Notes under the pieces: model-generated | Seen by the model: the letters and a program-made list of their open reading frames with translations, nothing else | Databases searched by the model: none | Told to the model about the DNA's origin: nothing | Shown: positions 1 to 1,236 of the stretch, piece by piece | How the letters are laid out: each line of letters begins with the position of its first letter | Numbering within the stretch: position 1 is the stretch's first letter | Made by a program: the position numbers and the translations under genes | Assembly (NCBI GenBank): GCA_021163845.1 | Contig: JAGGTH010000039.1 | Coordinates: 1-39,242 of the forward strand | Reading direction: 5' to 3' | Length of the DNA: 39,242 nucleotides | Source: Helicobacteraceae bacterium | GTDB taxonomy: Bacteria; Campylobacterota; Campylobacteria; Campylobacterales; Sulfurimonadaceae

Positions 1-244
1 GGTCTAACTCAAAGTCTTTTGAATTTTTATCATTTGCAATACTTTGTATCATATTGTCAGCATCATTACTTTTTAGTTTACCTGCAAATTGTAATAATTG
101 GCTGTGTTTTAAATTATTTTGTTTTGAAAAAAAGCTTATGGCTTTTTCTATAACTTCTGTTTTTGTTGTATGAAGTTCTTCTGATAATTGGTTGAGTGTA
201 ACAATGACACTTTCTTCCAAGCGTAGATTTACTGCTCTTTTCAT
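1..244 (-). CDS. Ribbon-helix-helix antitoxin-like protein, C-terminus cut by window edge
   Basis: An open minus-strand frame starts at ATG 244-242 and runs off the left edge without a stop, giving 81 visible codons. The product begins MKRAVNLRLEESVIVTLNQL and continues with a helix rich in charged residues. This is the pattern of CopG/ParD-type ribbon-helix-helix proteins: a short basic beta strand, then two helices. A strong ribosome binding site (AAGGAG, complement of 251-256) and a near-consensus promoter support the start. Such proteins usually bind DNA as dimers, repress their own promoter and neutralise a toxin encoded just downstream. Here any toxin would lie outside the window. The family call is inferred from the N-terminus only, and a stand-alone RHH regulator remains possible. 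Confidence 0.72.
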   Translation of the reverse strand, partial: MKRAVNLRLEESVIVTLNQLSEELHTTKTEVIEKAISFFSKQNNLKHSQLLQFAGKLKSNDADNMIQSIANDKNSKDFELD

Positions 245-319: not shown

Positions 320-476
320 TTATAACGGGGGCGCGGGTCACCGACTCCCGAATCAAAATTTTAATTTTTTATTTGGGTGCTCGGTGCACTCGCTTGTTAT
401 CTGGCGCTATGCGACAGATGACTAGCGAGTGTTCAGCTCGCGCCCCCGTTATCCGGTCGCGTAGCGAGCGGATAAC
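320..476. repeat. Nested inverted repeats forming a three-way cruciform plus hairpin
   Basis: This lies in the 481-base stretch between the RHH gene and the next gene (245-725), where I see no convincing gene. An outer 14-bp stem pairs 322-335 perfectly with 439-452. It encloses stem B (339-344 with 381-386, and 347-353 with 371-377) and stem C (388-394 with 424-430). Inside stem C is a hairpin of 399-403 with 415-419 and 405-407 with 411-413. A further hairpin (448-455 with 469-476, 457-460 with 464-467) shares GTTAT 448-452 with the outer stem, so the two folds compete. The stretch is GC-rich in AT-rich surroundings. It resembles a recombination site such as a long attC, or a REP/MITE-like element. 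Its function is unknown. Confidence 0.7.
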
Positions 477-640
477 TATTCATTCAAACACATTATATGG
501 AGAATACCCTTAATTAACATAAATAACTTACATTTTACACACTACATCCCTATGAGTGAATCTTCACTTCTATGTTATAATTTTTTTATTACTGAATTAC
601 AATTGAGGCTTCGTTAAAAGAAATGAAGACTGCTTTTTAC

Positions 641-687
641 GGGCTAACGCCTGTGTTAAAGCGAAAGCTTTGCAGAAACTTGTTATA
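641..687. repeat. Short imperfect hairpin upstream of the toxin-antitoxin pair
   Basis: TAAC (645-648) and GTTA (682-685) bracket a central hairpin whose AAAGC and GCTTT arms are separated by a GAAA tetraloop. On the minus strand the segment reads TATAAC ... GCGTTAGCC, which loosely recalls the ends of integron attC sites. The intervening complementarity is weak, so the attC reading is tentative. A smaller hairpin, AGTGAA-TC-TTCACT, lies nearby at about 554-567. Confidence 0.35.
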
Positions 688-689
688 CT
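684..689 (+). promoter_or_regulatory. Possible -10 box for the toxin-antitoxin operon
   Basis: TATACT lies 37 bases before the antitoxin ATG, in an AT-rich stretch. No convincing -35 is present at 16-18 bases, which is normal for Campylobacterota promoters. This is a prediction only. Confidence 0.35.
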
Positions 690-725
690 AATCCTCAAAA
701 AATAAAGTCAAAAGGAGTTGTAAAG

Positions 726-959
726 ATGCATATAGCTATAGATGTTAACGACCCATCAGTCGCACAGAAAATACTCCACTATCTTAAAAGTTTCAAAAAT
801 GAGATTGCCGTAGATGCATTTGAAAATGATGAGGAGTTTGAAAAAAACAAGCAGTCCTTGCATACGATTTATAACTCAATAAAAAACTCTCCTGAAAATT
901 TACATACACTAGATACTGACTTTTGGGATGAGATGGACAGCGCAATAAAAAATGCTTAA
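726..959 (+). CDS. Putative antitoxin of a type II toxin-antitoxin pair
   Basis: A 77-residue acidic protein, preceded by AGGAG about nine bases before its ATG. It overlaps the following RelE/ParE-like toxin gene by 8 bases. I do not recognise a DNA-binding fold with confidence. The N-terminus (MHIAIDVNDPSVAQKILHYL) suggests a beta strand and helix, while the C-terminal half is acidic and probably wraps the toxin. The antitoxin assignment rests on size, charge, order (antitoxin first) and translational coupling. If correct, it neutralises the neighbouring toxin and may repress the shared promoter. Lower GC than the ribE-recQ genes that follow is compatible with horizontal acquisition. Confidence 0.7.
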   Translation: MHIAIDVNDPSVAQKILHYLKSFKNEIAVDAFENDEEFEKNKQSLHTIYNSIKNSPENLHTLDTDFWDEMDSAIKNA

Positions 960-1236
960 AACCATACAAAGAAGTGAACCTTTCAAAAAAAGCTTGCTGG
1001 GGATTTTAACTTTTATTGCAAAAGATAGTAAAAATAAAGCAAATATTTTTAAAAAAGCCTTGCAAGAAAAAATAAACCAACTTACATTTATGCCTTTTAA
1101 GTACAGAAAATCTATCTATTTTGAAGATGAAAATATTCGTGATTTTATCTTCAAGGGCTACTGCATCCCTTATGTAATAGATGAAGAAAACGAAAAAATA
1201 ATATTGCTAGATATAATCAAATACGAAAAGAGATAA
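952..1236 (+). CDS. RelE/ParE-family toxin
   Basis: A 94-residue basic protein. It starts inside the last codons of the preceding antitoxin gene, so translation is probably coupled. The layout fits the RelE/ParE fold: an N-terminal strand (KTIQRSEPFKKSL), two helices rich in lysine, then a C-terminal sheet with RKSIYFEDENIRDFIFKGY and a final ILLDIIKYEKR strand that is typical of this superfamily. RelE members cleave mRNA on the ribosome and ParE members poison gyrase; the sequence does not tell which applies. The gene appears intact. It ends 3 bases before ribE, so TA and ribE transcription may be joined. Confidence 0.82.
   Translation: MLKTIQRSEPFKKSLLGILTFIAKDSKNKANIFKKALQEKINQLTFMPFKYRKSIYFEDENIRDFIFKGYCIPYVIDEENEKIILLDIIKYEKR

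Follow-up and report, generated by a model that had tools for sequence, protein, structure and literature searches.

A gene-free, highly folded repeat of Sulfurimonas and its relatives as a probable non-autonomous integron cassette

The locus and the folded element

At the left end of the window (the whole stretch of 39,242 nucleotides that was analysed) a small antitoxin-like gene, a densely folded element, an attI-like site and a parDE-ribE block follow one another (Table 1). Comparison of about 60 aligned copies sets the repeated unit at exactly 322/323-476 of the window minus strand, which is the strand of the array, where the order is gene, ordinary attC, element and next gene. The element holds no gene, as the sequence-only reading had stated. 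The DNA between 482 and 536 is 86-88% identical to attI DNA of three relatives (G009, G016 and G055), and on the far side of this site the ParE toxin at 952-1236 matches PF05016 with an E value of 1.3e-10.

Table 1. Features at the locus, parts of the putative cassette and related cassettes (window positions unless a locus is named)
Feature	Positions	Strand	Remarks
Following cassette gene	2..244	-	Small ribbon-helix-helix-like antitoxin (VapB-like); assigned by position, strand and weak family matches only
Whole gene-less palindromic cassette (putative)	322..476	-	155 bp; G^TT at 476/475 and 326/325; ~60 aligned copies
Right, attC-like half	322..403	-	R'' AGATAAC (402-396), L'' arm, variable end, L' arm, R' GTTAT (326-322)
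Left "anti-attC" arm	415..447	-	Shortened version of the right half's attC arms, in inverted orientation
5' hairpin	448..476	-	R' half GTTATCC (476-470) pairs with first R''-like box GGATAAC (454-448)
attI-like site	477..540	-	-10-like TATAATG (497-491), reads towards the element; no intI beside it
parD-like gene (726-959) and ParE toxin (952-1236)	726..1236	+	Chromosomal neighbour, outside the cassette
185-bp gene-less palindromic cassettes	L034:12782-12966, L035:9072-9256	-	Stem sequence unrelated to that of the window element

In two relatives (G110 and G032) the parDE-ribE block has neither attI nor element and lies directly after a Sel1-repeat gene. In the genome of the window (G000) contig C68 ends with the Sel1-repeat gene and then a PIN-toxin fragment (E 0.007), which reads towards that gene and is probably the toxin partner of the antitoxin at 2-244. 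Since G110 and G032 lack the unit, and since the Sel1-repeat gene and the PIN fragment end C68, the attI, the element and the antitoxin gene look like a unit inserted across an assembly gap. This genome has the palindrome ACGGGCTnnnGCCYGT at three places only (639-654, G000:C68:11623-11638 and G000:C28:1372-1387); two of the copies flank the unit, one on each side, and the third lies near an ordinary attC on C28. The attC model finds three ordinary attCs in the genome, on contigs C28, C2 and C51. A supposed attC at 645-690 (minus) was discarded, the model giving no match anywhere in the window, as was the idea that contig C2 starts at a cassette boundary, its first heptamer mismatching the next R''. 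The window holds no intI beside its attI, and no gene of G000 exceeds the TIGR02249 cut-off, so that the arrangement defining a sedentary chromosomal integron, intI beside attI, is absent from the locus; because no intI was found in its genome, the window copy is probably immobile in cis now.

The nested inverted repeats that had been described from the letters are all present, namely the 14-bp outer stem 322-335/439-452 (100%), 387-407/411-431 (86%) and 448-460/464-476 (92%), and the two folds do exclude each other, with the outer stem and the 448-476 hairpin competing over their common GTTAT. The folding of 322-476 is far beyond chance (z -9.4): the 181-base region folds as DNA to -56.9 kcal/mol, against -23.9 +/- 3.5 for 200 dinucleotide shuffles, none of them as good. 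Read along the array strand, the element consists of the 5' hairpin (GTTATCC...GGATAAC), the left arm, a short centre and the right half. Helix 1 of the hairpin is 99.6% paired in 103 sequences, with two-sided changes at 7 of its 8 pairs, and its variants covary (GTTATCC/GGATAAC, GTTGTCC/GGACAAC, GTTGCCT/AGGCAAC, GTTGTAC/GTACAAC and others). The shared GTTATCyGG start noticed earlier is real and proves to be the recombination-box motif (R'/R''), covarying with its other copies. The 5' heptamer is complementary to both boxes of its own element, at 7 of 7 positions for GTTATCC/GGATAAC and 6 of 7 for GTTATCC/AGATAAC, and the three change together across the family: GTTATCC/GGATAAC/AGATAAC, GTTGTCC/GGACAAC/AGACAAC and GTTGCCT/AGGCAAC/AGGCAAC.

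The left arm is taken for an inverted copy on the basis of a reverse-strand self match of the family profile (E ~1e-8). One part of it, GGGGGCGCG.., pairs with the 322-335 region and another, CTCGCTAGTCATCTG, with 388-403, and the long stem so formed shows covariation order-wide. The view that this arm works as a second, reversed attC was given up, no inverted copies having been seen, and it is treated here as a pairing arm. The right half runs from CAGATAACAAGCG... to CGCGCCCCCG^TTA; its arm TAACAAGCGGGAGGAG resembles TAACAAnnnnGAGGAG of the ordinary attCs of the genus, and pairs of its L-stem change on both sides. A model made from 28 ordinary attCs (R1) gave no match to this half at E 10. 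The dominant fold is a continuous long stem without the unpaired central spacer or the extrahelical bases of a canonical attC; a weaker short fold would leave the L box with asymmetric bases, and the right half folded alone as a plain attC reaches -16 kcal/mol, against -57 for the fold that uses the left arm.

Boundaries and insertion sites

Copies of the element start and end at G^TT on the array strand. The ordinary attC preceding them has the form TAACAA...GGAG...CTC...ACG^TTATCC, and the presence of such sites just before the element led us to drop the idea that the whole of it is one long attC. The sequence-only reading, which had proposed a long attC-like single-strand recombination site, was thus right about the integron kind of the element and about flanks unlike those of one plain attC, and wrong in taking as a long attC what appears to be a whole gene-less cassette between two G^TT points. 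In the cassette that follows the element, the opening heptamer is complementary to the R'' of that cassette's own attC, perfectly so in 35 of 53 cases. The mean agreement is 3.43 of 4 variable positions, compared with a shuffled mean of 1.99 (maximum 2.36 in 2000) and with 2.09 of 4 when the same heptamer is set against the attC before the element; the non-perfect cases probably include some in which an intervening attC was missed.

Furthermore, the same cassettes are found with and without the element, across genomes and within one genome (G115), joined exactly at G^TT (L035/L036, L034/L035, L017/L041, L023/L041 and L112/L041). The same exact join distinguishes the attI sites of L046 and L110, which have the element, from that of L060, and attI sites without it are also found in L053, L058 and L062. 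These comparisons, with exact joins at G^TT whether or not the element is there, indicate that it is a separate gene-less integron cassette between two recombination points. For excision and insertion by IntI the pairs provide historical evidence only.

In a first set of 96 copies an automatic rule placed 44 after a model-detected attC and 24 at an attI motif, and most of the remainder were seen by eye to lie at an attC or attI, or at contig ends. In an order-level set of about 53 copies, whose site classes are automatic and in some cases clearly wrong, roughly half lie at attI, right after a Pc-like -10. A single orientation was found among the classified copies, no inverted copy being noticed, and after many copies a gene begins within a few bases. 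The attI motif, (A)TATAATGnnnnTTGAATAAATA^GTT, stands beside an intact intI in L044, L052, L056, L041 and L036, with or without the element. Among about 41 attI-located copies with readable upstream DNA, about 17 have an intI or a remnant of one; the others adjoin ordinary genes such as clpB, tatB, dnaE and recN (named from translated starts). In one genome (G433) three attI/Pc modules of about 290 bp, near-identical to one another (L138, L139 and L155), have the same element, different cargo and no intI beside them; one cargo cassette codes for an EcoRI-family restriction enzyme (PF02963, E 6e-151). Such modules might be integrase-less mini-integrons, made of attI/Pc, the palindromic cassette and one or a few cargo cassettes, which would be scattered over many chromosomal sites and use IntI supplied in trans, a proposal that we consider doubtful. 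The window seems to hold another unit of this type, between the Sel1-repeat gene and parDE-ribE.

Distribution, covariation and the conserved strand

The element is present once in its own assembly (113 contigs) and in many copies in relatives, the outcome that the sequence-only reading had suggested looking for. Among 135 genomes of the genus (Sulfurimonas), a DNA search found it in 35, often clustered on one strand, and a covariance model (R2) in 40; with this model it was also found in 50 of the 228 family genomes (7 of 18 genera) and in 37 of 399 genomes of an order sample (15 of 87 genera). An exact pattern scan gave as hosts Sulfurimonas MAGs, Helicobacteraceae MAGs and one MAG labelled Gracilibacteria, which may be a binning error; plasmids, phages and IMG/VR (the latter by exact pattern) gave no match. 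A genome may hold up to 12 near-identical copies. The 12 of G115, 3 of them distinct, are 99.3% identical, compared with 78% between genomes. Many short-read contigs end inside the element (for example L042, L043, L048, G042:C5 and G148:C1) and, given such ends, the copy number in draft genomes is probably underestimated.

An integron integrase exceeds the TIGR02249 cut-off in 52 of the 135 genomes of the genus, more commonly with the element (22 of 40 carriers) than without it (30 of 95 non-carriers; p 0.013), and adjoins element clusters in G005, G012, G029, G102, G002, G011 and G022. The integrase that the sequence-only reading had proposed to look for is therefore missing from the genome of the window and present in the genus. 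Judged on that genome alone, with its single copy and no intI, the reading would fall; the relatives reverse this outcome.

Other stems occur in the same setting. A 185-bp family, whose stem is GGCGAAGCTGAGC/GCTCAGCTTCGCC, shares the hairpin-plus-three-way fold (z -11.7), is present in 25 of the 135 Sulfurimonas genomes, and sits at attC and attI too. A third stem, GGCAGTGCTGAGC/GCTCAGCACTGCC, is found in L144 (three copies) and at L140:2698-2878, in elements of 179-181 bp with the same layout. Families with other stem sequences thus keep the architecture of the element. Short forms of about 52-66 bp were also observed (L106, L107, L108, L116, L120, L102, L025, L105 and L041:5941), many of which look like deletions between two CACCCGC repeats, and a hand count puts 9 of 13 of them at attI, compared with 19 of 69 for the full copies, an enrichment with p 0.008.

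Compensatory changes support the fold among the relatives, as had been asked of a covariance model. In 38 aligned copies two-sided changes were found at 15 pairs, against 9.8 after shuffling, and in 102 cells, against 28.5. The order-wide set of 103 distinct sequences, an alignment fitted to the model and hence leaning towards structure, has two-sided changes at 33 of 45 pairs, with every helix supported, 524 two-sided cells against 143, and a covariation of 0.305 against 0.112, which 0 of 500 shuffles reach. Sliding the pair partners as a control makes the covariation collapse. Variants of the long stem can be read directly (GGTGGC/GCCACC, GGCAGC/GCTGCC and GGCCTGCGGG/CCCGCAGGCC).

The mismatches in these helices are unevenly divided between the strands. 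Order-wide, 222 mismatch cells read A.C in the top strand of the array, which is G.T in the bottom one, against 29 that read G.T in the top, and in a smaller set the cells, which like the former are non-independent events, number 76 against 2, with pair positions in the same direction (13 against 2; p 0.007). The more stable strand was the bottom one in 52 of 52 and 50 of 50 copies folded; ordinary attCs have the same bias (24 of 28), and coding DNA has none (24 of 60). As G.T on the bottom strand accounts for most of the mismatches, this strand (the window plus strand), the one that IntI recombines, appears to be the conserved molecule. A structured RNA of the sense strand, one of the roles first suggested for the element, is disfavoured by this strand test.

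Interpretation and relation to known systems

We consider, with a probability of roughly three in four, that 322-476 is a complete gene-less integron cassette at an attI-like site, belonging to a non-autonomous, MITE-like family that would depend on IntI from elsewhere. Its boundaries, its range of sites, the presence/absence pairs, the bursts within genomes and the strand-specific conservation of the fold all support this reading. IntI made elsewhere would recognise the folded bottom strand and move the element like other cassettes. By pairing with the attC arms, the left anti-attC arm would let the strand extrude in a very stable three-way form, and might either speed folding and extrusion or keep the site closed after insertion. 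Since the element carries no gene, its spread is most simply seen as selfish. Other observations argue against this reading: the single copy and lack of intI in its own genome, the lack of an intI over the TIGR02249 cut-off in the genome with 12 copies (G115), the lack of an adjacent intI for roughly half of the attI-located copies, and the failure of model R1 to match the right half. Furthermore, the dominant fold should, by analogy, be a poor IntI substrate, because its long perfect stem has neither spacer nor extrahelical bases; in experiments with VCR, pairing of the spacer carried a 27-fold cost and deletion of extrahelical bases lost strand choice (PMC2727003).

The same mobile cassette could instead have been domesticated, and be kept as a promoter, as a Pc/array insulator or as a first-position regulator of intI. 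The frequent place right after a Pc-like -10 and the genes that begin just behind many copies fit such a role, which we nevertheless hold improbable, as conservation tracks the bottom strand and not a sense-strand transcript, no conserved promoter was seen by eye, and the distribution is patchy (40 of 135 genomes), with near-identical bursts within genomes. A MITE- or REP-like transposon, whose transposase would target attC and attI in the manner of IS1111-attC elements and group IIC-attC introns, would likewise be small, gene-less, built of inverted repeats and present in many copies, and its insertion at GTT with a possible GTT(A) duplication would be indistinguishable from cassette insertion. 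We consider this reading very unlikely, given the insertion into attI as well as attC, sites that share little but the G^TT core, the 5' heptamer of the element, which matches and covaries with its own R'' boxes, and the attC-like right half; the REP/MITE comparison made at first holds only as an analogy, the insertion sites and ends being of the IntI recombination type. A structured RNA made from the window plus strand, and so antisense to the array, would show a wobble bias like that of the bottom DNA strand and has a parallel in the small RNAs reported for ORF-less cassettes (PMC6557892). It is just as improbable, since an Rfam search with the element gave only chance-level matches, none over the gathering score, the ends are recombination points that covary as R''/R' boxes, and ordinary attC sites carry the same strand bias.

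Integrons are already known in Campylobacterota (PMC8618304, PMC10295459), and the gene-less cassettes of Vibrio form families of up to 45 paralogous copies, for which "selfish" or "promoter" roles have been proposed (PMC1382264, here and below as described in part of that report). The element resembles them in being gene-less, with many near-identical copies per array in one bacterial group, and differs from them, as there described, in its inverted attC arm, its conserved three-way bottom-strand fold, its preference for attI and its order-wide range. Promoter activity has been shown for gene-less cassettes of Vibrionaceae (PMC11014356) and Treponema (PMC6557892), which also lack a reading frame and are bounded as other cassettes are; those are defined by that activity, whereas here it is a folded DNA strand that is conserved, and first-position gene-less cassettes, reported as rare there, are frequent here. 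VCR (129 bp, with a branched terminal structure; PMC2727003) is similar in length, in its branched fold, in the favoured bottom strand and in recombination at G^TT, but it closes one gene cassette, whereas the element lies between two recombination points and has a long stem without unpaired spacer or extrahelical bases. Like MITEs, the element is non-autonomous, short, palindromic and multi-copy; unlike them, it would need an integrase and attC/attI in place of a transposase and terminal inverted repeats. The open-access literature searched yielded no cassette with an inverted attC arm or with this fold. Gene-less paralogous cassettes are thus already known; the fold, the range and the frequent place at attI sites lacking intI look new.

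If this reading is true, the element would live as a parasite on the integron itself, being a cargo-free cassette kept only for the folding of its bottom strand, across an order. Its more than 100 natural variants, with several unrelated stem families and short deletion forms, would be a test set for what IntI needs of a folded strand, and its preference for attI bears on the choice of first-position cassettes. It would also explain a class of GC-rich, gene-free, highly folded repeats in Campylobacterales, which may be what breaks the short-read assemblies of these bacteria.
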